Source: Rhodospirillaceae bacterium (GTDB lineage Bacteria > Pseudomonadota > Alphaproteobacteria > Dongiales > Dongiaceae). From it: 64,000 nucleotides of DNA. A program made the position numbers and the translations under genes. Positions within the stretch are counted from its first letter, which is position 1; every line of letters begins with the position of its first letter. The notes beneath the pieces were generated by a model. That model did no database searches, had not been told where the DNA came from, and saw nothing but the letters and a program-made list of their open reading frames with translations. This document shows, one piece after another, positions 23,418-46,718 of this stretch. Location: assembly GCA_008012315.1 (NCBI GenBank), contig SSEL01000001.1:124001-188000 (forward strand), in the 5' to 3' direction.

Positions 23418-23906
23418 TCACACCCGCCGATACATGAAATACCGCCCGGGCGCGACATCGGCGGGCAGCGGCAGGGCGTCGAATTCGGCGGCATTGATTT
23501 CGCGGTCGGCGATCAGCACGGCGCCGCTTTTGGCCAGCTCTACGAAGCTTGGCGTCAGGGCGTCGGCGAGCGCGCGGTTGGCGGCGTCGTCACCGGTGCC
23601 GCAATCGGCATGCAGCAGAACCGATGCGGCGCCGAGCCGGGCAATCGCCTGCGGCAGGGTCTCGCGGAAATCGCCGAGGAACGTCAGGTCATCGGGCGGA
23701 ATGCAATCGGGATGGGCATTGATCTGCCGGTCGAAGACATAGATGCTCCGCTCCGGCAGCAGGCTTCGCAGGTGATCATAGGTGCGGCCATTGCCGAGCC
23801 CGAATTCCAGCGCATGGCCCGGTAATCCACGCACCAGGTCGGCCGCATGGTTCAGGCAGGAGCGCTGTGCCTGCATGCGGCGGATGAAACTGTCCAGACG
23901 ACTCAT
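23418..23906 (-). CDS. Class I SAM-dependent methyltransferase-like protein
   Basis: A 162-residue protein. Residues 33-41 (LEFGLGNGR) form the glycine-rich SAM-binding loop, and the acidic end of strand 2 is in IYVFDRQ. It is short for a methyltransferase and lacks a visible substrate-recognition extension. It could modify a small molecule or be a reduced family member. It lies downstream of the cNMP-binding gene on the same strand, with one TAGAGC repeat between. Whether it works with the ABC exporter is only a guess from position. Confidence 0.65.
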   Translation of the reverse strand: MSRLDSFIRRMQAQRSCLNHAADLVRGLPGHALEFGLGNGRTYDHLRSLLPERSIYVFDRQINAHPDCIPPDDLTFLGDFRETLPQAIARLGAASVLLHADCGTGDDAANRALADALTPSFVELAKSGAVLIADREINAAEFDALPLPADVAPGRYFMYRRV

Positions 23907-23937: not shown

Positions 23938-24043
23938 TAGAGCATTTTCAAGCGAAGTGGGCACCGGTTCGCATGAAGAAAATGCGAAACAATACGGAGA
24001 TAGAGCATGTCCCGCGATTCAACAAAACGTGGCCATGCTCTAG
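23938..24043. repeat. TAGAGC mosaic repeat, family A copy 2
   Basis: A 106-base relative of 14225-14331. The first half folds as GCATTTTC...GAAAATGC around GCGAA...TTCGC. The second half pairs TAGAGCATG with CATGCTCTA at the very end. The terminal CTA (24040-24042) is, on the minus strand, the TAG stop codon of the cNMP-binding gene. Between the two copies the outer stem changes on both sides (CTT/AAG to ATG/CAT). Confidence 0.85.
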
Positions 24044-24492
24044 TCGTGATCGGCAACCGCATCGCGTAATTGCTCTGTCGTATGTTCCAGGCGCTGCGCC
24101 AGCACCCGCATGACCTCGATGGCGATCGAGGGAAAATCGGTGATCATGCGGAAGAACAGCTCTTTGGTGATTTTCAATGTCGTCAGCGGCTCGCGGGCAA
24201 TGATGGTGGCGGTACGCGGTATGTCGCAGAGAATGCCGATCTCGCCGACAAAAGCATCGCGCCCCATCTCCGCCACTTTCAGCGGGCCGCTAGGCGTGTT
24301 CACCATGACATCGGCGGTGCCGTCCAGGATGATATAGGCGGCATCGGCAAGATCGCCTTGGTTGAACAGTATTTCGCCGGGCTGATAGCTGGCCCTTTCG
24401 CTGGCGAAAGCCATGAGTTTCAACTTCGACGGCTCAACCTTGGTAAATAGCGGAATGCGCCGCAGGGCTTCGACATCGTCATGGATGCTCAT
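24040..24492 (-). CDS. Cyclic-nucleotide-binding domain protein
   Basis: A 150-residue single-domain protein. The phosphate-binding cassette is at about 81-97 (FVGEIGILCDIPRTATI) with Glu84 and Arg93, the residues that hold the cyclic nucleotide's ribose and phosphate. No DNA-binding helix-turn-helix follows, so it is not a Crp/Fnr regulator and probably acts by protein contact. It lies 173 bases downstream of the unusual ABC exporter on the same strand and may regulate it. Its stop codon is supplied by a TAGAGC repeat. Confidence 0.85.
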   Translation of the reverse strand: MSIHDDVEALRRIPLFTKVEPSKLKLMAFASERASYQPGEILFNQGDLADAAYIILDGTADVMVNTPSGPLKVAEMGRDAFVGEIGILCDIPRTATIIAREPLTTLKITKELFFRMITDFPSIAIEVMRVLAQRLEHTTEQLRDAVADHD

Positions 24493-24665: not shown

Positions 24666-27431
24666 TCATGCCGTGGCCGGCACCGGCGTGGTGTCGCCGA
24701 TCTCCTGTTCCGCCCGCTGCTGCCGTGACGGGCCGGCCAGGTCGCGCAACAGGCTGCCCGGCTGGTCGAGCTCGGCCACCGCGCCGGCTTCCAGCACGCG
24801 TCCATCCTTGAAGACGACGGCATCCTCACAGGACCAGGCGAGGCTCGCGGTATCCGTCATCAAGACCGTCGCCTTGCCCTTGCGGTAGGCGAGCAGGCGA
24901 TCGAGCAGGCGATGCTGTGTCGCATGGTCGAACAAGGCAAAGGCGTTGTTCAGGACCAGGACCTGCGGATGCTTGATCAGGGCCCGCAGCAGCGCCACTT
25001 TCTGCCGCTGCTGGGTCGACAGCTTCTTGCCGCCGGAGCCGATGTGATAATCGAGCCCGACCTGCATGACATAGGCACGCAAACCGAGATTGTCGATCAC
25101 CTCGGAAATCAGTTTGCCGATCTTGGTATGGGCCTGGGCCTGACCGAAGACCAGGCGGCCGAACAGCAGGTTATCCTGCACCGAGGCGGCGGCGTTGTAG
25201 CGTTCCGGATCATAGAAATCGATGCGGGTGCGCAGCTCCGGCGGCAGGGTATCGAAGACCGCGCGGCGCGCCTTCAACAGGCGTTCTTCCATCGCCGTAT
25301 CGATCAGGTTCAAGCGATGCCGCGCTTCAATATAAGGGAAGGTGAGGCCGATCAGCTTGCGCCGGTCGAGCAATGTCGCTTCACCCAGGCCGCCTTTGTC
25401 CAGCCGCTGTACCAGCTGCTGATAGGCCGGCAATTCATCGGCGGCGATGAAGCTGAACTGATCGAAGAAGGGATGGCCCGGCGGCAGGTCGGCGAAGAGT
25501 TCGACCATGGTCTCGGCGATCTGCTGGCCCATCCGCAGCAGATCATTGGTCAGGCCTTGCCGGTCGAGCAATTGCGTCAGGAACGGGCTTTCCACCAGCC
25601 GCGCATAGTCGAAACCCGTGCCGCTGGTCGGCGTGCCGAACAGCATGTTTTCGACCAGGGTCAGGTTCTTATTGTAGCGCTCGGGATCGAAAGGCTCGAC
25701 CAGCGCCCTATACACCGGCTGGCGGAGGCGTTCGGCGATGGCCTGGCGCGCCAGCAGAAATTGCTGGGCGAGTTCGGGTCTCTCGGTCGGATCGATGAAG
25801 CCGCGCAGGCCGAAATGATAGACGTCGCCATCGAACTCGGCCACCGCCAGCAGATCGGTGATCGCCGCGCTCAAGCCCGCCGTATCGGTGACGCCGGCGG
25901 CCTGGTAATCGATCCAATCGGCCGTGATGTCGAGCACCGGATTGCCGGCCCGCATCGCCTCGGCGATTTCCCATTCGCGCCGCCGGTTCGATTCTTCATT
26001 GCTGCTGCTCACCGTTCCCGGCCGATGTTTCAAGCCATAGGTGATGTTCTCACGGATCGATTGCGGAAAGAGATAAGCTTCATCGCCGACATAAGAGAGA
26101 TAGCGGCCAAGGGCCGCCTCCGGCAGTTCCTTGACGTCGTAGGAACCGATCCGCATCGATCCGGTGGTGGGGTCGACGAACCGCGCCAGCGTGAAGCCCA
26201 GGGCTTCCTTGCCATGGCCCATCGCCACGACGCTGCGATCCGACGCCAGCGTCAAGGTCACGTCATCGAGCAGCCGCGCGCCGCTCTCATCGATATAGCC
26301 GACATGCTGCAAGTCGATCGGCGCCACCGGCAGACTGACTTCGGCGCCGACATCCTGCCTGGTGCGATCCATCATGCCGGTGGGCGAGAACTGCTCCGTC
26401 ACCTGATCGTATTTGATCTGCACGTCCTGGCGCTGCTGGTCCCAGTCGATCAATTCCTTGATCGGGCTCGGCAGGTCCTTATAGGCACCGATCGCCGCCA
26501 CCAGGCTACCGATATCGAACCGCCCCATCAGCGCCAGATAACCGCCGATCAGATAGAACAGGAAGGGGGTGGTTTGGGCCAGCATGTTGTTGAGATATTT
26601 GACAAAGAATTTCCGCTGATAAAGATCGAAGCGGATCTTGAAGATATGCCCCAGGCGATTGACGATATCGGCGCGCTCGTAATTCGAAGTGTCATGCACA
26701 TGCACCTCCTGGGCGCCGTCGACCACTTCGGCGATGCGGCCGGCGAGCTGCCGGGCGGTGATCTGGCGCTCGCGGCCAAGCAGCAGGATCTTCACCCGCA
26801 GGCGCGGAATGACCACGACCTGGATGGCCAGGATGGCGACGGTGACGCCGCCGAGGAAGATGCTCTGGGTGAACAGGAAATAGAGCGCGGTCAGCGCCGT
26901 TCCGCCGAGAAAGGCCGGCTGGATGAAGGCGTCGCCGATGAAGCCGCCGAGCGGCTCCACCTCATCCTTGATCATGGTGGCGATTTCCGCCTGCTTGACC
27001 TTGCGGAAATGGCTGAAGGGGAAACGCAAGATCCGGTCGAACAATTCATAACGCAGGCGACGCAGCATGCGCTCGCCGAGGCGGCCTTTTTCGGTCTGCA
27101 CCCGTTGCTTCAGCCAACCGTTGAGCACGACGAAGAACAGGAAACTGCAGCAGAGCGCGATCAGGTAATCCACCCGGTCGAGCTGGAACCCATCGAACAA
27201 TGTCACCTTCGGCAGGCCAAGCCAGTCATAGGGCCCCAGGGTCAGCCGCAGAAAAGGTGCGGTCGGGTTGCCCTTGAAGGCAGCGCCCTGGATGGCGTTG
27301 TTGACGATCTGTTTCGGCAGGTCCAGGGAGATGAAATAGAAGACCTGCGATATCGCCACGATGGCCAGAATGGCTAATTGGTCGCGCCAGCTATTGCGCC
27401 AGATATATTTAAAAAGATTGCGATCCATCAT
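24666..27431 (-). CDS. ABC exporter-like membrane protein with a degenerate, expanded nucleotide-binding domain
   Basis: A 921-residue protein. Residues 1-330 are an ABC exporter membrane domain (hydrophobic spans near 20-38, 88-105, 172-208 and 285-302). From about 370 a nucleotide-binding fold begins, but every catalytic motif is altered. Walker A reads VAMGHGKEA (402-410), the Q-loop glutamine is Asp in YVGDEAYLF, and the signature is KKLSTQQRQ (802-810). Walker B is LVLNNA with Asn-Asn for Asp-Glu, and the H-loop His is Asp in LMTDTAS. The distance from Walker A to signature is about 400 residues, against roughly 100 in normal exporters. The extra part holds repeated DPERYN...LFG units (582-599 and 741-758). 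Probably a non-hydrolysing relative; substrate unknown. Confidence 0.85.
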   Translation of the reverse strand: MMDRNLFKYIWRNSWRDQLAILAIVAISQVFYFISLDLPKQIVNNAIQGAAFKGNPTAPFLRLTLGPYDWLGLPKVTLFDGFQLDRVDYLIALCCSFLFFVVLNGWLKQRVQTEKGRLGERMLRRLRYELFDRILRFPFSHFRKVKQAEIATMIKDEVEPLGGFIGDAFIQPAFLGGTALTALYFLFTQSIFLGGVTVAILAIQVVVIPRLRVKILLLGRERQITARQLAGRIAEVVDGAQEVHVHDTSNYERADIVNRLGHIFKIRFDLYQRKFFVKYLNNMLAQTTPFLFYLIGGYLALMGRFDIGSLVAAIGAYKDLPSPIKELIDWDQQRQDVQIKYDQVTEQFSPTGMMDRTRQDVGAEVSLPVAPIDLQHVGYIDESGARLLDDVTLTLASDRSVVAMGHGKEALGFTLARFVDPTTGSMRIGSYDVKELPEAALGRYLSYVGDEAYLFPQSIRENITYGLKHRPGTVSSSNEESNRRREWEIAEAMRAGNPVLDITADWIDYQAAGVTDTAGLSAAITDLLAVAEFDGDVYHFGLRGFIDPTERPELAQQFLLARQAIAERLRQPVYRALVEPFDPERYNKNLTLVENMLFGTPTSGTGFDYARLVESPFLTQLLDRQGLTNDLLRMGQQIAETMVELFADLPPGHPFFDQFSFIAADELPAYQQLVQRLDKGGLGEATLLDRRKLIGLTFPYIEARHRLNLIDTAMEERLLKARRAVFDTLPPELRTRIDFYDPERYNAAASVQDNLLFGRLVFGQAQAHTKIGKLISEVIDNLGLRAYVMQVGLDYHIGSGGKKLSTQQRQKVALLRALIKHPQVLVLNNAFALFDHATQHRLLDRLLAYRKGKATVLMTDTASLAWSCEDAVVFKDGRVLEAGAVAELDQPGSLLRDLAGPSRQQRAEQEIGDTTPVPATA

Positions 27432-27591: not shown

Positions 27592-27726
27592 TAGAGCCGG
27601 ATCATTTTAGGCGGAATCGCTTCGCAATTTTGTCTAAAACGTGATTCCGCCTCTCATCAATAAGATAGAGGGCGATTCACGTCTTTGACGGAAGTAAATG
27701 CCTTCGTCAAAGGCGATCACGCTCTA
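27592..27726. repeat. TAGAGC mosaic repeat, family B copy 1
   Basis: A 135-base element from TAGAGC to GCTCTA in the divergent gap. GGCGGAATC pairs with a later GATTCCGCC, and GTCTTTGACG pairs with CGTCAAAGGC near its end. It is clearly related to 46583-46718 over the whole length. Both copies lie in divergent promoter regions. Confidence 0.85.
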
Positions 27727-27830
27727 GGCATCAAACCCGCCGGTTTCGATCCCGCCATTGACGGCTCGTGGTCAAGCTGGCAGACCCTTTCCGCCCCAAT
27801 TGGACCATCGAGTTAAGATAAATCTTGGCC

Positions 27831-27860
27831 TTTCCAGCTTGCTTGGGGACATGTCATAAT
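27831..27860 (+). promoter_or_regulatory. Possible promoter of the glycosyltransferase operon
   Basis: TTTCCA (27831-27836) and CATAAT (27855-27860) are 18 bases apart. A start near 27867 would leave a leader of about 40 bases before ATG 27906. The -10 box is good and the -35 weak. Confidence 0.35.
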
Positions 27861-27905
27861 CCGCCCTCCTTTGACATCAGGGGATGGCGCGTGTCGGAGA
27901 AAGCG

Positions 27906-29150
27906 ATGAGCGAGCGTGATGCGCGCGTCCTGATCTACAGCCATGACAGCTTCGGCCTGGGCCATCTGCGGCGCTGCCGGGCCATCGCCCATTCCCTGGT
28001 CGATCAGAACAAGGATATGTCGGTCATCATCCTGACCGGCTCGCCGATCATCGGCAGTTTCAATTTTCGCGCCCGGGTCGATTTCATCCGCATCCCCGGC
28101 GTGATCAAGCTGCGCAGCGGCGATTACACGCCGCTCAGCCTGTTGATCGATATTGACGAAACCCTCGCTTTGCGCAGCTCGATCATTCAGCATACCGCCG
28201 ATATTTTCGACCCCGACATCTTCATCGTCGACAAGGAGCCGCTTGGCCTGCGCGGCGAAGTGCGCCCGACCCTGGAGATGCTACGCGATCGCGGCACCCA
28301 TCTCACGCTCGGCCTGCGCGATGTGATGGATGAACCGGCCTCCCTGGCGCCCGAATGGAAGCGCAAGAACGCGGTGCCGGCCTTGCGCGATCTTTATGAT
28401 TCCATCTGGGTCTATGGCCTGCCGCAGATCTGCGATCCGCTGGAAGGCATCGATCTGCCGCGCTCGGTGCAGCATAAGATGAGCTATACCGGCTATCTGC
28501 AGCGCAGCCTGCCGAGCGAGCCGTCGCCGGTGACGCCGCTGCAGAAGATCGAAGCGCCGTATCTGCTGGTCACGACCGGCGGCGGTGGCGATGGCGAGGA
28601 CATCATCGATTGGGTCCTGCGGGCCTATGAGAACGATCCGCGCATGCCGCATCCGGCCTTGCTGGTGCTCGGCCCCTTCATGCAATCGGAGCGCCAGGCC
28701 GAATTTCTGGCCCGCGCCGCGCGGCTGCCGCAGGTCGAGGCGATCACCTTCGATGCCCAGATGGAGACGCTGATGGACCGCGCCATCGGCGTCGTTGCCA
28801 TGGGCGGCTACAATACCTTCTGCGAAATCCTCAGCTTCGACAAACGGGCGCTGATCGTGCCGCGCACCAAGCCGCGCAAGGAACAATACCTGCGCGCTGC
28901 CAAGGCCAAGGAACTGGGGCTTTGCTCGATGCTGGAAGACGATGGCGCGCGGCCCTGGCGGGCCATGGCGACGGCCTTGCGGCAATTGCCGCAGCAGGCC
29001 CTGCCGAGCGAGGTGGTGGTGCCCGGTCTGCTGGACGGCCTGCCCAATCTCAATCGCCTCGTGCAGCAGGCGCTGGAACGCTCGAAGCGGCGCCCGCAGC
29101 GCGGCGCCATCGGCAAGCCCCGCCGGCTGGCCGCGCAGCAGGCGCAGTGA
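27906..29150 (+). CDS. MurG/GT28-like glycosyltransferase (COG4671 type), first copy
   Basis: A 414-residue GT-B-fold protein. The N-terminal domain opens with VLIYSHDSFGLGHLRRCRAI, in which GHLRR is the family's loop. The C-terminal donor-binding domain has TTGGGGDGED and MGGYNTFCEIL (about residue 300), like MurG-type enzymes that use nucleotide sugars. It resembles the gene at 32346 in both motifs, so the two are paralogues. GGAGAAAGCG supports ATG 27906; longer frames lack this. First gene of the presumed glycan operon. Donor and acceptor sugars are unknown. Confidence 0.78.
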   Translation: MSERDARVLIYSHDSFGLGHLRRCRAIAHSLVDQNKDMSVIILTGSPIIGSFNFRARVDFIRIPGVIKLRSGDYTPLSLLIDIDETLALRSSIIQHTADIFDPDIFIVDKEPLGLRGEVRPTLEMLRDRGTHLTLGLRDVMDEPASLAPEWKRKNAVPALRDLYDSIWVYGLPQICDPLEGIDLPRSVQHKMSYTGYLQRSLPSEPSPVTPLQKIEAPYLLVTTGGGGDGEDIIDWVLRAYENDPRMPHPALLVLGPFMQSERQAEFLARAARLPQVEAITFDAQMETLMDRAIGVVAMGGYNTFCEILSFDKRALIVPRTKPRKEQYLRAAKAKELGLCSMLEDDGARPWRAMATALRQLPQQALPSEVVVPGLLDGLPNLNRLVQQALERSKRRPQRGAIGKPRRLAAQQAQ

Positions 29151-29172
29151 CCGGCCGCCGCAAGTTTCTGCC

Positions 29173-30588
29173 TTGAGTACCGTGCCCCGCTTGCCCGTTT
29201 CTCCCGCCACCGCATCCTTTGCCGACCGGCAAACCGGATCTGGGCGGACGCAACCTAGCATCCTGTTTCTGCTGAAAGGCTATCCGCGCCTGTCGGAGAC
29301 CTTTATCGCCCAGGAGATCCGGGCGCTGGAAGAACGCGGCCTGCCGGTGCGGATCGTGTCGCTGCGCTTCCCCACCGACAAGCATGTCCATCCGATCCAT
29401 CGCGAGATCGTGGCGCCGGTCACCTATCTGCCGGAATATCTGATCCAGGAACCGGGTCGCGTCCTGCGCGGCTGGTGGCGGGCGCGGCGGCTGCCCGGCT
29501 ATCGGCGGGCTTTGCGCGTCTGGCTCGGTGACCTACGGCGCGATTTCACCACCAATCGCGGCCGGCGCTTCGGCCAGGCCTGTGTGCTGGCGGCGGAGAT
29601 CGTCGCCGGCAGGCACGGCGATGTCCGCCGCCTGCATGCGCATTTCCTGCACACGCCGGCCGCCGTCGCCTATTACGCCAGCCTGATGACCGGCATTCCC
29701 TGGAGCTGCTCGGCTCATGCCAAGGATATCTGGACCACGCCGGATTGGGAGAAGCGCGAAAAGCTCACCAGTCTCGACTGGCTGGTGACCTGCACGGCCA
29801 GCGGCCATCGCCATTTGCAGGATCTCGCCGCCGAGCCGGCGAAGCTTTCCCTGGTCTATCACGGTCTCGATTTCCGCCGCTTCCCCTTGCCCGCGCAAGA
29901 CCAGGCCGCCGCGCCGCTGTCGCCGGACAAGGAAAGGTCGGGCAAGGAAAGGCCGGGCAAGGAGGCAAGACCGCTCGTCATTCTCTCGGTCGGCCGCGCC
30001 GTGCCGAAGAAGGGCTATGACGACCTGCTCCGTGCGCTGGCGCGATTGCCGGCCGAGCTCGATTGGCGCTTCCAGCATATCGGCGGCGGGCCGGAGCTCG
30101 AGCGGTTGAAATCCCTGGCGGCGGAACTCCGCATTGCCGACCGCGTCGCGTGGCGCGGTGCGCAGCCGCAACTGGAGGTTCTCGCCGCCTATCGCGCCGC
30201 CGATCTCTTCGTCCTCGCCAGTTGCATCGCCGAGGATGGCGACCGCGACGGCTTGCCCAATGTGCTGATGGAAGCGCAGAGCCAGGCATTGCCGGTGATC
30301 GCCACCTCGATCTCCGGCGTGCCGGAACTGATCCAGGATGGCGAAACCGGATTGCTCGTGCCGCCCAACGATCCCGAAGCCCTGGCCGGTGCGATCGCCG
30401 GATTGCTGCCCGACCCGGCCCGGCGCCGGGCGCTGGCAGATGCCGGAGCGCAGCGCCTGCGGGCGCATTTCGCCATGGAGAGCGGCATCGACGATCTCGC
30501 GCGGCGGTTCGCGCCCGATCTTGGGCAGGATATAAACCAGGCGACCCTGGCGGACCAGGAAAGCGCCGCCCGGCAATCGGTTCGCTGA
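29173..30588 (+). CDS. Family 4 glycosyltransferase
   Basis: About 471 residues of GT4 type. The N-terminal domain starts with ILFLLKGYPRLSETFIAQEI. The C-terminal domain has SVGRAVPKKGYDDLLRAL and the donor-site stretch GLPNVLMEAQSQALPVIATS. The start is uncertain: no ATG is suitably placed, and TTG 29173, 22 bases after the previous stop, is my best choice, with GTG 29182 next. The linker between the two domains contains three in-frame 15-base repeats (DKERS, GKERP, GKEAR) at 29926-29970. SETFIAQE near the start is frequent in exopolysaccharide GT4 enzymes. Confidence 0.82.
   Translation: MSTVPRLPVSPATASFADRQTGSGRTQPSILFLLKGYPRLSETFIAQEIRALEERGLPVRIVSLRFPTDKHVHPIHREIVAPVTYLPEYLIQEPGRVLRGWWRARRLPGYRRALRVWLGDLRRDFTTNRGRRFGQACVLAAEIVAGRHGDVRRLHAHFLHTPAAVAYYASLMTGIPWSCSAHAKDIWTTPDWEKREKLTSLDWLVTCTASGHRHLQDLAAEPAKLSLVYHGLDFRRFPLPAQDQAAAPLSPDKERSGKERPGKEARPLVILSVGRAVPKKGYDDLLRALARLPAELDWRFQHIGGGPELERLKSLAAELRIADRVAWRGAQPQLEVLAAYRAADLFVLASCIAEDGDRDGLPNVLMEAQSQALPVIATSISGVPELIQDGETGLLVPPNDPEALAGAIAGLLPDPARRRALADAGAQRLRAHFAMESGIDDLARRFAPDLGQDINQATLADQESAARQSVR
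29926..29970 (+). repeat. Three 15-bp in-frame repeats in the GT4 linker
   Basis: Units at 29926-29940, 29941-29955 and 29956-29970 are variants of GGCAAGGAAAGGCCG. They encode charged pentapeptides between the two Rossmann domains. Adding or losing a unit keeps the frame, so length can vary without loss of the protein. Confidence 0.8.
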
Positions 30589-30589
30589 G

Positions 30590-31744
30590 ATGCATCGCAT
30601 TGCCTTTTACGCCCCGCTGAAATCGCCGGATCATCCGATCCCCTCGGGGGACCGGGCAATGGCACGCCTGCTGATTGCCGCCTGGCGCCGGCAGGGCGCC
30701 CAGATCGACATCCCCACCCGTCTACGCGCCCGCGTCGCCGGGCCCGATCCGGCGGCGCAGCGCCGTCTGGCGGCGCGCGCCGAAGCCGAGGCGGACAAGC
30801 TGATCGCGCATTATCGCGCGGAACTGCCGGACTGGCGGCCGCAGGCTTGGTTCACCTATCATCTCTATTACAAGGCGGTGGATTGGATCGGACCGAAAGT
30901 GGCGGCAGCGCTCGACATTCCCTATCTGCTGGCCGAAGCCAGCCATGCGCCGAAACGCGCCACCGGCGATTGGGCCTTCAACCATGCCGGCGCCGAACGG
31001 GCGATCCGCGCGGCATCGACGATCTTCTGTCTCAATCCCAATGACAAAGCCTGCCTGGCACCTTTGACCGGGGCGGCGCGGCTGGTCGATCTGCCGCCCT
31101 TTCTCGATCTGGCGGCCTTCGCGCCCGTCGCGCCGGACAAGATCGCGGGCCGCCGCCGCCTGGCAGCCGAAGCCGGCATCGATGCGGCATCGCCGCGTTT
31201 TGCGGCACCCTGGCTGCTCGCCGTCGGCATGATGCGGCCGGGCGACAAGCTCGCCTCTTACCGGCAGCTGGCCACCGCCTTGCCTGCCATCGCCGGGCGC
31301 GACTGGCATTTGATGATCATCGGCGATGGGCCTGCGCGGCCGGAGATCGAGCAGCTCTTCGCCCCCGTCGCCGACCGGGTGACCATGCTCGGTGCCAAGG
31401 CGCCCGAGGCCCTGCCGGATTGCTATGCCGCCGCCGATCTGCTGGTCTGGCCGGCCGTCAACGAGGCTTTCGGCATGGCCCTGCTGGAGGCTCAGGCCTG
31501 CGGCCTGCCGGTCCTGGCCGGCGCAGTCGGCGGCGTGCCCGCGATCTTGCGCGACGGTGAAACCGGCTGGCTGGCGCCGGCGGATGATCCGGCCGCCCTC
31601 GGCGCCTTGCTGCAGCGTCTGCTGGATGCTGATCTCGCCGCCGCCGGGCGCCGCGCCCGCCAGCATATCGAAGCGGGTCACGATATCACCGGCGCGGCGC
31701 GGATATTGGACCGGGCCTGGCATGAACTGGGGTTGCCGGCATGA
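30590..31744 (+). CDS. Family 4 glycosyltransferase, second
   Basis: A 384-residue GT4 protein. It starts MHRIAFYAPLKSPDHPIPSGDR, and the C-terminal domain has the E-x7-E motif NEAFGMALLEAQACGLPVLA with GGVPAIL and the DGETGWL loop. In the N-terminal half AEASHAPKRATGDWAF is a conserved-looking patch I cannot assign. It begins one base after the preceding stop codon and overlaps the next start by ATGA, so it is translationally coupled on both sides. Sugar specificity unknown. Confidence 0.85.
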   Translation: MHRIAFYAPLKSPDHPIPSGDRAMARLLIAAWRRQGAQIDIPTRLRARVAGPDPAAQRRLAARAEAEADKLIAHYRAELPDWRPQAWFTYHLYYKAVDWIGPKVAAALDIPYLLAEASHAPKRATGDWAFNHAGAERAIRAASTIFCLNPNDKACLAPLTGAARLVDLPPFLDLAAFAPVAPDKIAGRRRLAAEAGIDAASPRFAAPWLLAVGMMRPGDKLASYRQLATALPAIAGRDWHLMIIGDGPARPEIEQLFAPVADRVTMLGAKAPEALPDCYAAADLLVWPAVNEAFGMALLEAQACGLPVLAGAVGGVPAILRDGETGWLAPADDPAALGALLQRLLDADLAAAGRRARQHIEAGHDITGAARILDRAWHELGLPA

Positions 31745-32349
31745 CCGGGCTGGTTGTGATCCGCCATGCGCCGACGCCCTGGAATCGCGCCAGGCGGTTG
31801 CAGGGTCACAGCGATATCGCGCTCGATGATGCCGGCCGTGCTGTCGCTCTCAGCTGGCGCCCGGGCGTCGCCGCCTGGAGCGGCTGGCGCCTGCTGTCCA
31901 GCCCTTTGCGCCGGGCATCGGAAACAGCAGCGCTGTTGTTTCCCGGGCAATCCCTCACCATCGAGCCACGGCTGGTCGAGATGAGCTTCGGCGACTGGGA
32001 GGGAAAGACCCTGGCGCAGTTGCGGGGCGAGAAGGGGGCCGAGGTCGAGGAACGGGAAGTGATGGGGCTCGATTTTCATGCACCCGGCGGTGAATCCCCG
32101 CGCCAGGTCCAGGCGCGCCTGCAATCGCTGCTGGCGGAGATCGCAAGCGACGGTCGCGACACCGTCTGCATTGCCCATAAAGCGGTTTTGCGGGCCCTTT
32201 ATGCCCGCGCGACCGGCTGGGACATGCAAGCGAAGCCGCCGCAGAAGGTGCAGTTCGGCTGCGCCCATCTCTTCGATCTCGACGCCGCCGGCCATCCGGC
32301 CTTGCGGCAGTTGAATATCCCCCTGTCGAGCCGGACCGTCCCGGCATGA
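31741..32349 (+). CDS. Histidine phosphatase family protein (CobC/PhoE type)
   Basis: A 202-residue phosphatase with the catalytic RHA motif in VIRHAPTPWN, the acid residue region EMSFGDWEG and the second histidine in VCIAHKAVLRAL. Family members remove phosphate from small molecules. In this operon a sugar phosphate or lipid-linked intermediate is a reasonable guess. A role in cobalamin synthesis is unlikely, as no cob gene is near. Overlaps both neighbours by ATGA. Confidence 0.82.
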   Translation: MTGLVVIRHAPTPWNRARRLQGHSDIALDDAGRAVALSWRPGVAAWSGWRLLSSPLRRASETAALLFPGQSLTIEPRLVEMSFGDWEGKTLAQLRGEKGAEVEEREVMGLDFHAPGGESPRQVQARLQSLLAEIASDGRDTVCIAHKAVLRALYARATGWDMQAKPPQKVQFGCAHLFDLDAAGHPALRQLNIPLSSRTVPA

Positions 32350-33491
32350 CCGCGCGCGTCTTCTTCTATGTGCAACATCTGCTGGGCATCGGCCATCTGC
32401 GCCGCGCGGCAGCCATCGCCCGGGCCTTGCGCGAGGCAGGGGCGGTGGTCGATTTCGTGTCCGGCGGCATGCCTGTCGAAGGCATCGATCTTGGCGGCGC
32501 CGCGCTGATCCAGCTCCCCGCGGCCACCGCCGCCGATAGCGGCTTTTCCGCCATTTTCGATGCTGATGGCAGGCCGATCGACGACGGCTGGAAAGCGCTG
32601 CGCCGGGACCGGCTGCTGGCGCATTTCGCCGCCGCCCGGCCCGACATCCTGCTGGTCGAAATGTATCCCTTCGGCCGGCGCCAGTTCCGCTTCGAATTGC
32701 TGCCGCTGCTGGACGCCGCAGCGCAGCGCCGCGACCGCCCGCTGATCGCCTGTTCGGTGCGCGATATCCTGGTTGATAAGGGCCGCCCCGACCGGGTGGC
32801 GGAAGCCGTGGATCTGGTCAAACGGCGGATTGATCTCGTCCTGGTCCATGGCGATCCGCGTCTCGTCACCTTCGACCGCACCTTTGCCGGCGCCCCGGCC
32901 ATCGCCCACCGCCTGCGCTATACCGGCTATGTGGTGGAGCAGGCGGTGGCAGCCGCCGCGACCGATCGCGGACAGGGCGAGATTTTGGTTTCGGCCGGCG
33001 GTGGCGCCGTCGGCGCGCCGCTTCTGGCCGCCGCCCTGGCTGCCAGGCCGCTCAGCCAATACCGCGACCGGTCCTGGCGCCTGATCACCGGCCGCAACCT
33101 GCCGACCGATGATGCCACGATTTTGCGGCAGGCGGCGGCGCCGGATGTCATCCTCGAAACCTTCCGGCCGGATTTCACCAGGCTTCTGCAATCCTGCCTG
33201 TTATCGGTCTCCCAGGGCGGCTACAACACGGTCATGGAACTGATCGCCGCCCGCTGTCCCGCCATCATCGTGCCCTTCGCCGAAGGTGCCGAGAGCGAGC
33301 AGAGCCTGCGCGCCGATTTGCTGGCCGAACGCGGCGTGCTCAGTGTCCTGGCGCCGGCCGCGCTGACGGCGCAAAACCTGGCCGCCGCCATCGATCGCCA
33401 TCACGGTCCGGCCGCCGGTTTCGCGCTCGATCTCGACGGCGCCCGGCGCAGCGCCGGGATCCTGCTGCGAGGCGAAGAGGGGCTCTCATGA
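32346..33491 (+). CDS. MurG/GT28-like glycosyltransferase (COG4671 type), second copy
   Basis: A 381-residue paralogue of the protein at 27906. It has the same opening (VFFYVQHLLGIGHLRRAAAI) and donor-site motif SQGGYNTVMELIAARCP, and VSAGGGAVGAPLL replaces TTGGGGDGED. Length and domain order match GT-B enzymes. Two such paralogues inside one operon suggest successive sugar additions or different acceptors. Start and stop overlap neighbours by four bases. Confidence 0.8.
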   Translation: MTARVFFYVQHLLGIGHLRRAAAIARALREAGAVVDFVSGGMPVEGIDLGGAALIQLPAATAADSGFSAIFDADGRPIDDGWKALRRDRLLAHFAAARPDILLVEMYPFGRRQFRFELLPLLDAAAQRRDRPLIACSVRDILVDKGRPDRVAEAVDLVKRRIDLVLVHGDPRLVTFDRTFAGAPAIAHRLRYTGYVVEQAVAAAATDRGQGEILVSAGGGAVGAPLLAAALAARPLSQYRDRSWRLITGRNLPTDDATILRQAAAPDVILETFRPDFTRLLQSCLLSVSQGGYNTVMELIAARCPAIIVPFAEGAESEQSLRADLLAERGVLSVLAPAALTAQNLAAAIDRHHGPAAGFALDLDGARRSAGILLRGEEGLS

Positions 33492-34267
33492 CAGCGCCAA
33501 ACACGCCTCCCTGGGATGCGCTTGGCGAGGAACTAGCCCGGTGGGCGGCCGCCGGCCGCGTCGCGACCCTGTGGTGGCGTGACGATGATGCCGTGGCGGC
33601 AACGCCGGCTCTGGCACGATTGCTGGAATCGGCCCGCGTGCCGCTGGCCCTGGCGGTCATTCCCGGCCTGCTGGAATCCAGCCTCGCGCCCGCCTTGCGG
33701 CACCGCCCCGATATTTTTGTCCTGCAGCATGGTTTCCGGCACCGCAATCACGAACCCGGCGGCGTCAAGAATGCCGAGCTCGGTGCCAGCCGCGGGCCGG
33801 CGGAGCTGGCTGCGGAACTGGCCGCCGGCTGGCGCAGCTTACAGGATGCTTTCGGCGACCGGGCGCTACCGGTGCTGACGCCCCCCTGGAACCGGATCGC
33901 GCCGCAGCATCTGGCGGCGCTGCTTGGCTGGGGCTATTGCGGGATTTCCGCCTATCTGGCGCGCCGCGCGGCCTGTCCTGTTGCCGGTTTGTTGCAGGTC
34001 AACACCCATGTCGACGTGATCGATTGGCATGGCGGCCGGATCTTCGTCGGCGAAACGGCGGCGCTCGGCCTCCTCACCGGCCATTTGCGCGCCCGGCGCC
34101 TGGGCGAGGCCGATCCTGACGAACCGACCGGCCTCCTGACCCATCATCTGGTGCATGACGCCGCGACCTGGGCTTTTCTTGATCAATTGCAGGACTGGCT
34201 TTCCCGGCGCGCCATGATACGGTGGTTATCGACAGGTGAGGTTTTTGGCGGTTGCCACAGGGGCTGA
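33488..34267 (+). CDS. Polysaccharide-deacetylase-like protein
   Basis: A 259-residue protein with features of the NodB-type deacetylase fold. An aspartate cluster (WWRDDDAVAATPAL) stands at the first metal/catalytic motif, and LQHGFRHRNHEP gives the histidine motif. The C-terminal LLTHHLVHDAATW could supply the last catalytic histidine. There is no signal peptide, so it would act in the cytoplasm, before export. The likely substrate is the glycan or glycolipid made by the four glycosyltransferases upstream. Coupled by ATGA to the preceding gene. Confidence 0.75.
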   Translation: MTAPNTPPWDALGEELARWAAAGRVATLWWRDDDAVAATPALARLLESARVPLALAVIPGLLESSLAPALRHRPDIFVLQHGFRHRNHEPGGVKNAELGASRGPAELAAELAAGWRSLQDAFGDRALPVLTPPWNRIAPQHLAALLGWGYCGISAYLARRAACPVAGLLQVNTHVDVIDWHGGRIFVGETAALGLLTGHLRARRLGEADPDEPTGLLTHHLVHDAATWAFLDQLQDWLSRRAMIRWLSTGEVFGGCHRG

Positions 34268-34950: not shown

Positions 34951-36843
34951 ATGAACGGCAACCTGCTCGATATCCGCGACCTGCATATCAGTTTCCAGTT
35001 GGAGGGCGGGCTGCTCGATGTCGTGCGCGGCGTCTCCTTCCGGGTGCCGCATGGCAAGACCGTGGCGCTGGTCGGTGAATCCGGTTCCGGCAAGTCGGTC
35101 ATCGCCCAGTCCATCATGGGCATTTTGCCGAAGACCGCCCGCATCACCCGCGGCGATATCCTCTTCGATGACAGCGGCAAGGGCCGCCGTCTCGTCAATA
35201 TCGCCGAAATGCCGCGCGACGGCCGGGCGATCCGGCAGATCCGTGGCAGCTCGATCTCGATCATCTTCCAGGAGCCGATGACCTCGCTGTCGCCGGTTCA
35301 CACAATCGGCGATCAGGTCGGCGAAATGCTGCAGCTTCACCGCAAGCTGACCCCGGCCCAGGCCGAAAGCGCGGTCGCCGATATGCTGCGCCTGGCCGGT
35401 TTTCCCGACCCGCAGCGCGCCATGCGCTCCTATCCCTTCGAGCTTTCCGGCGGCCTGCGCCAGCGGGCGATGATCGCCATGGCACTGATCTGTCGGCCGT
35501 CGCTGTTGATCGCCGACGAACCCACCACCGCGCTCGACGTCACCATCCAGGCGCAGATCCTGAAACTGATGACCGATCTGCAGCACGAATTCGGCATGGC
35601 GATGCTGATGATCACCCATGATCTCGGTGTCGTCGCCAATATCGCCGATGAAGTCGTCGTGCTCTATCATGGCGAGGTCATGGAATCCGGCGGTATCCGC
35701 GATATCTTCGAACGGCCGCGGCATCCTTATCTGATGGCGCTGCTGCGGGCGGTGCCGCGTTTCGGCATGGGACCGGAGGAACGGCTGGTGCCGATCCGGG
35801 AGATCAAAAGCGAGATCAGCGGCGTCTTCGCGCAACGCGCGGATCATCGCCCCTCGGCGCTCGGCCAATGGGCGACCCAGCCTTTGCTCGACGTCCACAA
35901 TATCAGCAAGACCTTCTATATCCGCCAGGGCGGCTGGCTCGGCGGCGGCCGCAGCGCCTTGCGCGCGGTTGACGATGTCAGCTTCAAATTGCGGCGCGGC
36001 GAATGCCTCGGCCTGGTCGGTGAATCCGGCTGCGGCAAGACCACGCTCAGCAAGATCGTCATGCGCGCGCTGACGCCCGATGACGGCAGCATCACCTTCA
36101 ATGACGGCGATGGACCGGTCGATGTCCTGAAGCTCGGCGGCCAGGCGCTGACCGATTTCCGGCGCCGGATCCAGTTCGTGTTCCAGGATCCCTTCAGCTC
36201 GCTCAACCCGCGCATGACGGTCTTCGATATCGTCACCGAGCCGCTGGTGATTCACGGTATCGGCACACCGGCCGAGCAGGCCGGGATCGCACGGGAATTG
36301 ATGCGGCTGGTCGGTCTCGGCACGCAGCATCTCAATCGCTATCCGCACAGTTTCTCCGGCGGCCAGCGCCAGCGCATCGGCATCGCCCGCGCCTTGGCGT
36401 TGCGGCCGGATATCCTGATCTGCGACGAACCGGTTTCGGCGCTCGATGTCTCGATTCAGGCCCAGGTGCTTAATCTGCTGAAGGACCTGCAGGCGAAACT
36501 CGGCCTCACCTATATCTTCATCTCGCATAATCTGGCGGTGGTGGATTACATCGCCGATCGCATCATGGTGATGTGCGCCGGCCGCATGGTGGAGATGGCG
36601 CCGGCCGAGCGGCTGTTCCGCCATCCGACCCATCCCTATACCAAGGCGCTGCTGGCGGCGGTGCCCGATCCGTCGCTGGAACACCGCCTGGATTTCGACA
36701 AGCTGATGGAAGGCAAGGCATCGATCCCCGCAGCCTGGCCGAAGCCCTTCACCATCGACGAAACCCATCGGCCGGGCCTGGTGGAAATCGCCAACGGCCA
36801 CTGGGTGCGCGCCGGCATCGATGTACGCGAGATCGCGGCATGA
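34951..36843 (+). CDS. Oligopeptide-type ABC importer, fused double ATPase
   Basis: A 630-residue protein with two complete Dpp/Opp-type ATPase domains. The first has Walker A GESGSGKS at 42-49, signature LSGGLRQR and Walker [13 protein letters not shown]. The second has GESGCGKT near 360, FSGGQRQR and [12 protein letters not shown]. Such DppD-DppF fusions (YejF/GsiA type) power import of peptides or other oligomers. It is followed, with a four-base overlap, by its binding protein and then two permeases, so the importer is complete. Confidence 0.95.
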
Positions 36844-38852
36844 AGACGGGACGCAAGGCGATCGCCGCCGCCGCCTTCGGCATTGCCGCCATGATTGGCG
36901 CGGCGTTTCTGCCCGCCGTCCCGGCGCGGGCACAGCATGCCATCGAAATGCCGACCTCCTTCATCGACCCGCCTTACTTCGCCGCTGCGGAAGAGGCAGG
37001 TAAGCTGCCGCCGGTCGAGCAGCGCCTGCCGACGGTTCCCGCCATCGCCGAGACCGCGAGCCTCGGCCGCCAAGGCGGTGAGATCCGCATGCTGATGGCC
37101 AATTCCAAGGACACCCGCATCCTGGTGGCCTATTGCTATGCCCGGCTGGTCGCCTATGACCGGAACTACAGGTTGACGCCCGATATCCTGGAAAGCTTCG
37201 ATGTGCTGGATGACCGGGTTTTCACCTTTCATCTGCGCAAGGGCCAGAAATGGTCCGACGGCGCGCCCTTTACCACCGAGGATTTTCGCTATTACTGGGA
37301 GGACGTGGCGAATAACCGCGAGCTTTCCCCAGGCGGCTTGCCGCGCGAATTGCTGGTCGACGGCAAACCGCCAAAGGTCGACGTGATCGATGAGACGACG
37401 ATCCGTTATAGCTGGGACAAGCCGAATGCGGAATTCCTGCCATCGCTCGCCCGCGCCGCGCCCCTCTATATCTACCGTCCCTCGCATTATCTGAAGAAGT
37501 ATCACATCAAGTATCAGAAGAAGGACAAGCTCGATGCGATGGTGGCCAAATCCGGCCAGCGCAATTGGGCCGCTCTGCACAACAAGAAAGACAACATCAA
37601 CAAGAACGATAATCCGGATTTGCCGACGCTCGATGCCTGGGTGCTGCGGGTCAAGCCCCCGGCGCGGCGTTTCGTCTTTACCCGCAATCCCTATTATTAC
37701 CGCATCGACAGCGCCGGCCATCAATTGCCCTATGCCGATCAGGTGGTCTTCGATGTGGCCGATTCCAAACTCATTGCGGCAAAGACCGCTTCGGGCGAAT
37801 CCGATCTGCAGGCCCGCTATCTCGCCTTCGACGACTACACGATCCTGAAAGATGGCGAGGACAGCGGCAAATATCGCGTGCGGCTATGGGATGACGGGCG
37901 CGGCTCCAATCTGGCACTCTATCCGAACCTGACGACGGCCGATCCGGTCTGGCGGCAGATGATGCGCGATATCCGTTTCCGCCGCGCGCTGTCGCTGGCG
38001 ATCAACCGCCACGAAATCAACCAGGCGATCTATTTCGGCCTGGGGCAGGAGGGCGGTAACACCGTGCTGTCGCATTGCCCGCTCTTTTCGCCCGAGATCC
38101 AGAAGATGTGGTCGATCTATGACCCCGAGCAGGCCAATCAGCTGCTTGATCAGATGGGCCTCACCCAGCGCAACGAAGACGGCTTGCGGCTGCTGCCGGA
38201 CGGACGACCGATGCAGATCATCATCGATATGGCCGGCGACAGTCTGGAACAATCGGACGTGCTGGAGCTGATCGCCGATTCCTGGAAACAAATCGGCATC
38301 TCCCTGCTGATGAAGCCCTCGCAACTGGAGGTCTTTCGCAACCGGATCTTGTCCGGCCAGTCCATCATGTCGATTTCGAGCGGCGTTGATAACGGCTTTC
38401 CCACCCCAGATATGTCGCCGCAGGAATTCGCGCCCTCGACCCAGGGTCAATATATGTGGCCGCGCTGGGGACAATATATCGAGACCGATGGACGAGCCGG
38501 CGAGAAGATCGATCTGCCCGCCGCCCGTATGCTGGCGGGATGGCTGCGGGAATGGCGCATGACCGCCGAACCGACCAAAAGGCTCAATCTCTGGTTCAGT
38601 ATACTGCGGCTCTGGGCGGATGAAGTCTTCACCATCGGCATTGTCGCCAATGTGCCGCAGCCTGTCGTGGTGGCGGACCGCCTCCATAACGTCCCCGAGA
38701 AGGCGATTTTCTCCTGGGATCCCGGCGCTCATTTCGGCCTCTTCAAGCCCGATACCTTCTGGCTGGACGATGACGGCCGGCCGCTCAGCCCGGTTTCCGG
38801 CAGCATCACCCAGGAATTTGCCGGTGACGCCGCTAAACCGGGCAGCAATTAG
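36840..38852 (+). CDS. Large extracellular solute-binding protein, family 5 (oligopeptide type)
   Basis: A 670-residue exported protein. The signal peptide ends in PAVPARA, probably cut before QHAIEMP. The mature part has the family-5 pattern TPDILESFDVLDDRVFTFHL, KWSDGAPFTTEDF and IRFRRALSLAINRHEIN. It is longer than DppA/OppA (about 500-550), with an insert rich in lysine (residues 220-260). Such long members are often found with YejABEF-like systems and can bind peptides, murein fragments or oligosaccharides. Start overlaps the ATPase stop (ATGA). Confidence 0.9.
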   Translation: MKTGRKAIAAAAFGIAAMIGAAFLPAVPARAQHAIEMPTSFIDPPYFAAAEEAGKLPPVEQRLPTVPAIAETASLGRQGGEIRMLMANSKDTRILVAYCYARLVAYDRNYRLTPDILESFDVLDDRVFTFHLRKGQKWSDGAPFTTEDFRYYWEDVANNRELSPGGLPRELLVDGKPPKVDVIDETTIRYSWDKPNAEFLPSLARAAPLYIYRPSHYLKKYHIKYQKKDKLDAMVAKSGQRNWAALHNKKDNINKNDNPDLPTLDAWVLRVKPPARRFVFTRNPYYYRIDSAGHQLPYADQVVFDVADSKLIAAKTASGESDLQARYLAFDDYTILKDGEDSGKYRVRLWDDGRGSNLALYPNLTTADPVWRQMMRDIRFRRALSLAINRHEINQAIYFGLGQEGGNTVLSHCPLFSPEIQKMWSIYDPEQANQLLDQMGLTQRNEDGLRLLPDGRPMQIIIDMAGDSLEQSDVLELIADSWKQIGISLLMKPSQLEVFRNRILSGQSIMSISSGVDNGFPTPDMSPQEFAPSTQGQYMWPRWGQYIETDGRAGEKIDLPAARMLAGWLREWRMTAEPTKRLNLWFSILRLWADEVFTIGIVANVPQPVVVADRLHNVPEKAIFSWDPGAHFGLFKPDTFWLDDDGRPLSPVSGSITQEFAGDAAKPGSN

Positions 38853-38871
38853 GATCGGATCGACGGAAATC

Positions 38872-39870
38872 ATGCTGCGCTATCTGATCCGCCGCCTTTT
38901 CGTGATGATCCCGACGCTGATCGCCATCAGCTTCCTGATCTTCGTCATCATCCAGGCGCCGCCCGGCAGCTTTCTCGACACCTATATGGCTGAACTGCAG
39001 TCCCAGGGCGAGAATGTCGATCAAGGCCGCATCGAGTTCCTGCGGCATGAATATGGCCTCGACCAGCCTTTCTATATGCAATATCTGAAATGGGGGATCG
39101 GCCTGCTGCACGGCGATCTCGGCTATTCCTTCGAACATAATATGCCGGTGAGAGATGTGGTCGGCGACAGCTTGTGGCTGACGGTCATGGTGACGCTGGC
39201 GACGACACTTTTCGTCTGGGTGATCTCCTTTCCGATCGCGATCTATTCCGCGGTCCGCCAGTACAGCATCGGCGATTATGTCTTCACCTTCCTCGGCTAT
39301 ATCGGCCTCGCTGCGCCTAGTTTTCTGATCGCCTTGATCTTGCTTTATTTCGGCCATCTGTGGTTCGGGATCTCGATCGGTGGCTTGATGGATGCGCGAT
39401 ATATCGGCCAGCCCTGGAGTTGGGCGAAAGCCAGTTCGATCCTGTCGCATATCTGGATTCCGGTCCTGGTGATCGGCCTGCCGGGCACCGCCGGCATGAT
39501 CCGCCGGCTGCGCGCCAATCTGTTGGACGAATTGCATAAGCAATATGTGACGACGGCGCGGGCCAAGGGACTCAGCGGATGGCGGTTGCTGCTGAAATAT
39601 CCGCTGCGCGTCTCGCTCAATCCCTTTATCGCCGATATCGGCAGCCTGCTGCCGGAACTGATTTCCGGCTCGGTCATCGTCTCCGTCGTCATGTCACTGC
39701 CGCTGACGGGGCCGATCCTGCTGCAGGCCTTGCGCAGCCAGGACATGTATCTTGCCGGCTCCTTCCTGATGTTCATGGCCTTCCTGACGGTTGTCGGCGT
39801 CTTCATCTCCGATATCCTGCTGGCCATCGTCGATCCTCGCATCCGACTGGGGGGAGGAACGACGAAATGA
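38872..39870 (+). CDS. Oligopeptide-type ABC importer permease 1 (DppB-like)
   Basis: A 332-residue six-span permease. The opening MLRYLIRRLFVMIPTLIAIS is the classic DppB start. The EAA loop that contacts the ATPase is in TTARAKGLSGWRLLLKYPLR. A GGAA ribosome site precedes ATG 38872. The stop overlaps the next permease by ATGA. Confidence 0.94.
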   Translation: MLRYLIRRLFVMIPTLIAISFLIFVIIQAPPGSFLDTYMAELQSQGENVDQGRIEFLRHEYGLDQPFYMQYLKWGIGLLHGDLGYSFEHNMPVRDVVGDSLWLTVMVTLATTLFVWVISFPIAIYSAVRQYSIGDYVFTFLGYIGLAAPSFLIALILLYFGHLWFGISIGGLMDARYIGQPWSWAKASSILSHIWIPVLVIGLPGTAGMIRRLRANLLDELHKQYVTTARAKGLSGWRLLLKYPLRVSLNPFIADIGSLLPELISGSVIVSVVMSLPLTGPILLQALRSQDMYLAGSFLMFMAFLTVVGVFISDILLAIVDPRIRLGGGTTK

Positions 39871-41081
39871 ACCAGCGCGTCGACCCCAATCCGCCTGAAT
39901 CCAGCCCCCCCGAACCCACGCCACCGGTGCATTACGTCTCCACCGCGCCATTCGACCCGCTATCGGTCGAAGTGGTCAGCGCGGCCCAGGAAAAGTTCGA
40001 CATGGCCTCGCAATGGCGGATGATCTGGCTGCGCCTGCGCCGTCATCGCCTGGCCGTGCTTGCCGGCATCGTGCTGCTTCTCATGTACGCCGCCATCCTG
40101 ATGGTCGAGTTTCTCGCCCCCTATGGCCTCAACAGCCGCCATGTCGATCATATCTACGTCCCGCCGCAGCGGGTACATCTGTTCCACGAGGGGAGGTTCG
40201 TCGGCCCCTTCGTCTATGATCTCAATTACCGTCTCGACATGCGCAAGATGAAGCGGGTCTATACCGAGAAGACGGACTCACCGCCACGGCCGATCCGCTT
40301 CTTCTGCCATGGCGATCCCTATCGCTTCTGGGGCTTCGTTGCCGGCGACATGCATCTCGTCTGTCCGCCCAAGGACGCGGCGGGCGAAGCGCCGATGTTC
40401 CTGTTCGGCTCCGACCGCCTTGGCCGCGATATGCTGTCGCGCATCCTCTATGGCATGCGCATTTCCCTCACCATCGGCCTGATCGGCATCTCGGTCAGCT
40501 TCGTCCTCGGCATGCTATTCGGCGGTCTTGCCGGCTATTATGGCGGCTGGGTGGATGATCTGGTGCAGCGGGTGATCGAGATGCTGCGCTCGATCCCGCA
40601 TCTGCCGCTCTGGCTTGCCTTGGCGGCGATCCTGCCGGTCACCTGGTCGCCTTTGCTGGTTTATTTTGGCATCACCGTCATTCTCGGGCTGATCGACTGG
40701 ACCGGCCTTGCCCGTGCCGTGCGTTCGCGCCTGCTGAGCCTGCGCGAGGAGGACTTCGCCATCGCCGCCAAGCTCATGGGCGCCTCGCCCCAGCGCATCA
40801 TCTTCCGCCATCTGATGCCGAGCTTCATGAGCCATCTCATCGCCTCGGCGACCCTCGCCATTCCCGGCATGATCCTCGGCGAGACCGCGCTCAGCTTCCT
40901 CGGCCTCGGCATCCGCGCACCGATCACCAGCTGGGGCGTGCTGCTGAACGAGGCGCAAAGCGTGAACGTGGTCGTGCTCTATCCCTGGCTGATGCTGCCC
41001 ATGGTCCCGGTGATCATCGTCGTCCTTGCCTTCAACTTCCTCGGTGACGGCCTGCGCGACGCCGCCGACCCCTATCGCTGA
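39867..41081 (+). CDS. Oligopeptide-type ABC importer permease 2 (DppC-like, extended)
   Basis: A 404-residue DppC-like permease. The proline-rich N-terminal tail (about 60 residues) is cytoplasmic. After the first span (LAVLAGIVLLLMYAAILMV) comes a periplasmic insert of about 100 residues, longer than in DppC. It contains two cysteines (RFFCHGDP and HLVCPPKD), then FGSDRLGRDMLSRILYG and the remaining spans. The EAA loop is AAKLMGASPQRIIFRHLMP. Last gene of the operon, followed at once by a hairpin. Confidence 0.93.
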   Translation: MNQRVDPNPPESSPPEPTPPVHYVSTAPFDPLSVEVVSAAQEKFDMASQWRMIWLRLRRHRLAVLAGIVLLLMYAAILMVEFLAPYGLNSRHVDHIYVPPQRVHLFHEGRFVGPFVYDLNYRLDMRKMKRVYTEKTDSPPRPIRFFCHGDPYRFWGFVAGDMHLVCPPKDAAGEAPMFLFGSDRLGRDMLSRILYGMRISLTIGLIGISVSFVLGMLFGGLAGYYGGWVDDLVQRVIEMLRSIPHLPLWLALAAILPVTWSPLLVYFGITVILGLIDWTGLARAVRSRLLSLREEDFAIAAKLMGASPQRIIFRHLMPSFMSHLIASATLAIPGMILGETALSFLGLGIRAPITSWGVLLNEAQSVNVVVLYPWLMLPMVPVIIVVLAFNFLGDGLRDAADPYR

Positions 41082-46582: not shown

Positions 46583-46718
46583 TAGAGCCGGATCATTTTA
46601 GACAGAACCGCCAAGTGGTTCTGTCTAAAATGTGAATCCGTCTCTCATCGATATGATAGAAGGCGATTCACGTCTTTGATGAAAGCAGAATGCTTCCATC
46701 AAAGACGATCGCACTCTA
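46583..46718. repeat. TAGAGC mosaic repeat, family B copy 2
   Basis: A 136-base relative of 27592-27726, filling much of the 380-base hisB/hslV gap (46560-46939), where I see no gene. ATTTTAGACAGAACC pairs perfectly with GGTTCTGTCTAAAAT, and GTCTTTGATG with CATCAAAGAC. It ends ACTCTA instead of GCTCTA. Compared with copy 1, the second stem differs by a paired change (C-G to T-A). Confidence 0.85.

Follow-up and report, generated by a model that had tools for sequence, protein, structure and literature searches.

Type IV ABC exporters, among them MsbA, TmrAB, TM287/288, and P-glycoprotein, place a transmembrane domain (TMD) ahead of a nucleotide-binding domain (NBD), and in exporters the helical subdomain couples the NBD to the TMD. 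CFTR and SUR are ABC proteins that turned into a channel and a channel regulator, respectively, and the path from exporter to signal-gated conduit is understood essentially from vertebrate CFTR. The exporters associated with the CNBD-linked bacteriocin neighborhood TIGR03896 (CNBD, cyclic-nucleotide-binding domain) are canonical ATPases. Here, we examine a gene within a 64,000-nucleotide window of a Rhodospirillaceae bacterium genome (contig SSEL01000001.1; positions are counted from the first letter of the window) that encodes the same fold as the type IV exporters, in the same TMD-NBD order, with a degenerate ATPase domain. Proteins of this family are annotated as plain "ABC transporter ATP-binding protein," a label that is likely misleading. 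An open-access literature search returned no description of the family, and no functional study of it, of alphaproteobacterial "degenerate NBD" exporters, or of Sinorhizobium meliloti SMb20804-20815. The gene and its parts are as follows.

24666..27431, minus strand: the exporter-like gene, 921 aa, type IV ABC-exporter fold with a degenerate ATPase domain
26352..27431, minus strand: TMD, residues 1-360 (Pfam ABC_membrane at 87-313, E=4.7e-15)
26016..26336, minus strand: N-terminal half of the NBD, residues 366-472, with the first Q-loop-like module
26205..26228, minus strand: degenerate Walker A, V-A-M-G-H-G-K-E, residues 402-409 (alignment)
25227..26015, minus strand: insert, residues 473-735, with extra copies of the Q-loop and helical-subdomain module (hhalign)
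25635..25691, minus strand: second Q-loop-like motif, FDPERYN..LTLVENMLFG, residues 581-599
24762..25226, minus strand: C-terminal half of the NBD, residues 736-890 (Pfam ABC_tran at 750-831, E=1.7e-8)
25158..25214, minus strand: third Q-loop-like motif, YDPERYN..ASVQDNLLFG, residues 740-758
25008..25022, minus strand: degenerate signature, L-S-T-Q-Q, residues 804-808 (alignment)
24945..24962, minus strand: degenerate Walker B, VLVLNN, residues 824-829 (alignment)

The initial annotation had called this frame intact, and its coordinates, strand, and length are all exact. An 821-aa ORF on the plus strand, antisense to the gene (24912-27377), was left out of account as a probable shadow ORF of GC-rich sequence. 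Matches to PF00664 and PF00005 lie above cut-off on one chain in the order TMD-NBD, with Pfam recovering only the second half of ABC_tran (residues 750-831). The AF2 model (pLDDT 83, pTM 0.77) is that of a type IV exporter half. In VIA-align comparisons it matches TmrB over the whole chain (Z 27.4) and many exporters over residues 3-906 (Z 25-27). The TMD is the best conserved part of the protein.

Alignment of the query places its Walker A at V402-A-M-G405-H-G407-K408-E409, with the first Gly and the Ser/Thr replaced and G-x-G-K retained. Position 450 of the Q-loop is Asp, the signature L804-S-T-Q-Q808 has lost Gly-Gly and kept its Gln, Walker B and the catalytic position read N828-N829, and the H-loop position 860 is Asp; the D-loop Asp, D835, is retained. 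The protein thus lacks the complete Walker A, LSGGQ, Walker B Asp plus catalytic Glu, and H-loop His of a functional ABC ATPase. Each residue named as replaced in the initial annotation is indeed replaced, but its wording that all catalytic motifs are lost goes too far for the query, in which Walker A still has its Lys and G-x-G and both the signature Gln and the D-loop Asp persist, and further still for the family, many members of which keep the Q-loop Gln and the catalytic Glu. Five ordinary exporters in the same genome have GxxGxGK[ST] and LSGGQ intact, and the four single-NBD ones among them (L002, L003, L006, L008) also carry a DEAT Walker B, which argues that the motif loss reflects neither chance nor a general oddity of this genome.

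A point absent from the initial annotation is that the ATPase domain is interrupted by ~260 extra residues. When residues 366-900 are superposed on the ComA NBD in VIA-align, 236 of 239 residues align at 2.2 A and these ~260 residues are looped out. The insert holds two further copies of the Q-loop motif, each with its following helices. By hhalign, units 2 and 3 match at E 6.6e-13, units 1 and 2 at 7.4e-7, and units 1 and 3 at 1.3e-6, as against a best E of 0.024 among 36 column-shuffled controls (12 per pair). This profile similarity of the three units indicates that the helical subdomain has been tandemly triplicated. Unit 3 continues the NBD in the normal way (hhalign 99.9% to canonical NBDs), and unit 2 alone gives a weak match to canonical NBDs (20%) and has therefore diverged. 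When the insert was folded alone and its fold searched again, only the normal NBD core was matched (~100 aligned residues, Z 9-11); the evidence for the triplication is thus profile comparison and not a fold match. A fold search of a viral library with the insert gave no significant match.

All 16 of the other host-family members that we searched have homologues, as do 132 of 385 genomes sampled from across the class. In a phylum-wide draw of 398 genomes, full-length members were confined to the class, with one TMD-only match beyond it. Seven key positions were scored in 163 non-redundant homologues of the main group (type A). None has the full motif set; the maximum is five of seven, and most have two or fewer. 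The first Gly of Walker A is Ala in 154, and its Ser/Thr is Glu or Asp in 144, giving a family form A-x-x-G-x-G-K-[D/E] in which the Lys is retained by 118. At the Walker B Asp position, 125 have Asn and 15 have Asp; the two signature glycines are present in 11 and 16, and 27 still have the H-loop His. The erosion that the family shares consists of the acid in Walker A, the Asn in Walker B, and the loss of the signature glycines. The Q-loop Gln (74/163) and a Glu at the catalytic position (104/163) are often kept, so their loss in the query is specific to its own and some other lineages. The Walker A, Walker B, and signature replacements are thus kept across homologues, as had been proposed as a check, and a search for full-length homologues with normal motifs, which would have spoken for local decay, found none among the 163.

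Several members depart from the common pattern. The full-length homologue with the most canonical NBD (L093:2266-4977; five of seven positions, with LSGPQ, VLDEAT, and the His kept) has no CNBD within 6 kb and no glycosyltransferase cluster. It may represent the ancestral state or a paralogue, and the coincidence of a near-canonical NBD with a missing CNBD is suggestive, as a single case. A clade comprising L167-L169 and L184 still has GSGKS as its Walker A and VVDE as its Walker B but has lost the signature and H-loop; to judge from these motifs, it is an intermediate stage of motif loss. In S. meliloti R11 (L173, pSymB), the homologue is broken into two overlapping ORFs, apparently by a frameshift, and in most other S. 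meliloti strains the copy is near-identical and one base shorter. A distant type B subfamily (L170-L172, L181, L187; ~860-950 aa) has the same NBD-plus-insert plan with a strongly diverged TMD and no adjoining CNBD. A CHASE3-cyclase lies beside L181, and an L,D-transpeptidase-like gene lies beside L180 and L187.

Other genomes, several of which also encode the full-length protein, contain relatives of ~380-500 aa that consist of the TMD only. These genes lie in copper operons, flanked on one side by multicopper oxidase/CopB or plastocyanin-like genes and on the other by cytochrome c or PCu(A)C genes, and no NBD gene was seen near them in the loci examined by sequence. Their place in the copper-resistance operons is fixed at L175-L179, L199, L241, L242, and L243, on plasmids of Phaeobacter, Pseudosulfitobacter, Leisingera, and Roseovarius; about 70 plasmid records match over a TMD-sized stretch only. 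In a TMD tree, the TMD-only relatives group with the full-length family (98/98) and nest inside it (parent fork 86/91), with canonical controls on long branches and midpoint rooting, from which the direction of loss is inferred. These nested relatives are the strongest single hint that the TMD can work without ATP hydrolysis.

Immediately downstream of the exporter-like gene lies a stand-alone cyclic-nucleotide-binding protein.

24040..24492, minus strand: CNBD protein, 150 aa, next gene downstream (Pfam cNMP_binding, 1.5e-18)
24208..24246, minus strand: its phosphate-binding cassette, G83-E84 ... R93-T-A

Its cNMP_binding score is 67 bits against a cut-off of 27.5, and the cassette is nearly invariant among homologues (G83 in 135/135; E84 in 123/135, with Asp in 11; R93 in 133/134). 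With the fold and the Gly-Glu...Arg cassette, its sequence is that of a probable cyclic-nucleotide binder. Among proteins of solved structure, it best matches PKG, PKA regulatory subunits, and the channel SthK, the last with a phmmer E of about 5e-12. RNA structure between the two genes is ordinary (z 0.21). With one genome taken per family, 38 of 40 loci have a CNBD, either as the next gene downstream or fused to the C terminus; the other two show no recognizable CNBD in ~2 kb (L213) or 8 kb (L238) of downstream sequence. The full set of loci includes 156 with an adjacent CNBD and ~8 independent genomes with a fused one, the fusions being recognized by a Pfam CNBD match within the same chain and, in Azospirillum lipoferum and Ruegeria, by annotated proteins of fusion length. 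At two Rhodobacterales loci (L183, L198), a gene for a CPBP/Rce1-like membrane protease and accD come after the fused gene.

About eight lineages have a class III nucleotide cyclase gene next to the pair on the same strand: 29 bp away at L034/L239, 28 bp at L189, and 4 bp after the CNBD at L110, with cyclases also close by at L186, L191, L192, L193, and L237. Against a background of ~3.5 cyclase genes per Mb in 40 surveyed genomes, linkage this close and on one strand far exceeds what chance would give in those lineages. As a family-wide rule, the linkage was rejected: 4 of 40 loci have a cyclase in a stretch of ~18 kb, where two to three are expected. Cyclases within ~9 kb are no commoner than expected in the main clade, and the linkage is therefore lineage-specific support. 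The host genome encodes 18 cyclases.

The remaining neighbors include a divergent cluster of glycosyltransferase (GT) and Opp-type importer genes.

23418..23906, minus strand: SAM methyltransferase (Methyltransf_17), third gene of the conserved operon
27825..29150, plus strand: divergent GT28-type glycosyltransferase, probable start ATG near 27906 (Pfam, 3.4e-8)
29089..30588, plus strand: GT4 glycosyltransferase
30590..31744, plus strand: GT4 glycosyltransferase
31741..32349, plus strand: histidine phosphatase family protein
32346..33491, plus strand: second GT28-type glycosyltransferase
33488..34267, plus strand: conserved cluster gene without a Pfam match
34951..36843, plus strand: Opp-type importer ATPase with two intact NBDs, linked in many lineages
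36573..41081, plus strand: Opp-type solute-binding protein and two permeases

Most of the 40 families conserve this cluster (GT28-type, GT4, GT4, histidine phosphatase, GT28-type, two conserved genes, Opp-type importer), and the Methyltransf_17 gene often follows the CNBD gene. The cluster is annotated in Mesorhizobium, R. leguminosarum, and Azospirillum. Rhodobacterales fusion members are located away from it, which leaves the exporter-like gene and the CNBD as the core unit and a glycan link as the usual, not the sole, setting. The gene at 34951 was considered as an exporter partner and rejected as an Opp-type importer ATPase. Between the exporter-like gene and the divergent GT gene lies a ~128-bp palindrome-rich repeat (27600-27728 in the window, and again at 46591-46718), which has at least 40 copies in the genome at 80-91% identity.

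The homologue in S. meliloti 1021 lies at 841.7-844.4 kb of pSymB and is presumably SMb20813. That gene has been named as the msbA homologue (PMC10945364), and mutations in smb20804 and smb20805, whose tags are close in number, affect the K-antigen capsule (PMC5539429). As for identity with MsbA itself, the query was rejected by the TIGR02203 equivalog, at 136 bits against a curated cut-off of 602.

The reading we favor, to which we give an even chance, is that a former ATP-driven exporter has become a cyclic-nucleotide-controlled membrane gate or transporter that is not powered by ATP hydrolysis of its own. Its parts differ in strength. That the protein does not hydrolyze ATP is very likely, judging from its motifs and those of its relatives. 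Control by cAMP or cGMP through the CNBD is probable by a modest degree, and whether such control would gate a transport path we regard as evenly balanced. A glycan-related substrate is plausible but slightly on the doubtful side. By analogy with the fold of other type IV exporters, the TMDs most likely dimerize, and the NBDs would be retained as a structural platform. With the acidic Mg-binding position, the Walker B Asn, and the loss of the signature Gly-Gly, the expected chemistry makes productive ATP sandwiching unlikely. The CNBD probably binds cAMP or cGMP made by class III cyclases, a ligand suggested by the observed gene linkage, and the signal would be relayed via the enlarged helical layer to the TMDs, which would then open or close the substrate path. 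Synteny suggests a probable substrate for most lineages, either a product of the divergent GT cluster or a lipid-linked glycan from it. A bolder version can be put forward only tentatively, as rather unlikely: a bacterial cyclic-nucleotide-gated ABC-fold channel or uniporter, in which a direct cAMP/cGMP switch acting via the triplicated helical subdomain replaced the ATP engine, with one NBD-less offshoot in copper-resistance operons.

Of the three roles suggested initially (regulated channel, scaffold, or half of a heterodimer), the regulated channel fits best because the CNBD is linked or fused. Several alternatives to our favored reading nonetheless deserve weight. The protein might bind ATP without hydrolyzing it, its state being set by ATP and cyclic nucleotide together in a two-ligand transporter or receptor akin to the degenerate site of CFTR/SUR. 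Nucleotide binding may indeed persist, since retention of the Walker A Lys and of Glu at the catalytic position exceeds the expectation for free decay, G-x-G-K is largely kept, and L167-L169 retain both GSGKS and the DE of VVDE. We nevertheless consider this reading unlikely, as the acid at the Mg-binding Ser/Thr and the Walker B Asn, seen in 144 and 125 of 163 homologues, would both be expected to disfavor Mg-ATP binding, and the signature glycines are lost. It is quite unlikely that the protein serves as a scaffold or sensor in the membrane, recruiting glycosyltransferases or the Opp importer, and has no transport path of its own. Linkage to the GT cluster and to an importer with its own intact ATPase across most families would suit such a role, but the TMD is more conserved (62% mean identity to homologues) than a scaffold needs, and the Rhodobacterales members lie away from the cluster. 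The CNBD could also regulate expression or another protein instead.

A heterodimer like those of TM287/288 or TAP, in which the protein would be the inactive half, an unlinked canonical half-exporter its partner, and the CNBD the regulator, appears improbable. Degenerate NBDs are typical of one heterodimer half, the best fold matches include the heterodimeric TmrAB, and the host genome has several canonical exporters. However, heterodimer halves are usually encoded by adjacent genes, and we saw no second exporter gene in the conserved cluster, so that this suggestion of the initial annotation finds no support from linkage. Known degenerate halves keep the motifs that serve the partner's site, whereas here both sides are lost, and the TMD-only relatives have no NBD at all. 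Decay of the gene, to which the lost catalytic letters alone might point, we regard as having almost no chance of being correct: the frame is intact, and dN/dS is 0.14 for the TMD, 0.27 and 0.18 for the NBD halves, and 0.22 for the insert (712 close pairs, which are non-independent), values of purifying selection and not of decay. Together with substitutions conserved over many families, these features rule out a pseudogene or assembly artifact. The proposal of selection for a non-hydrolyzing ABC fold is well supported by the conserved substitutions, dN/dS, synteny over dozens of families, and nested NBD-less relatives.

If the gated-path reading is correct, the family would have taken, independently, a step parallel to that of CFTR from exporter to channel. 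It is widespread and easily grown, and its graded motif loss, CNBD fusions, cyclase operons, and NBD-less descendants would make the exporter-to-gate transition directly testable. It would also provide a new output for bacterial cAMP, in a class in which most cyclases lack known targets.

Each described system shares some of these features. Unlike the type IV exporters, whose fold it has, the family combines family-wide motif loss with an NBD split by a triplicated module and a near-constant CNBD partner. CFTR and SUR likewise pair exporter architecture with the loss of a canonical site, and CFTR is also under second-messenger control. Yet both keep at least one competent ATP site, are controlled via phosphorylation or a partner channel, and have no CNBD or triplicated subdomain; the likeness would be one of analogy and does not imply a special relationship. 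SthK and other CNBD channels use a control element of the same family as the CNBD described here, but the membrane part of SthK is like that of voltage-gated channels, whereas here it is an ABC-exporter TMD. The CNBD-linked bacteriocin exporters also combine a CNBD with an ABC exporter; the partner CNBD was rejected as a TIGR03896 member, scoring 41 bits against a cut-off of 161. Taken together, these comparisons suggest a protein that is an exporter by fold and that may, at best, be CFTR-like or CNBD-channel-like in its working.
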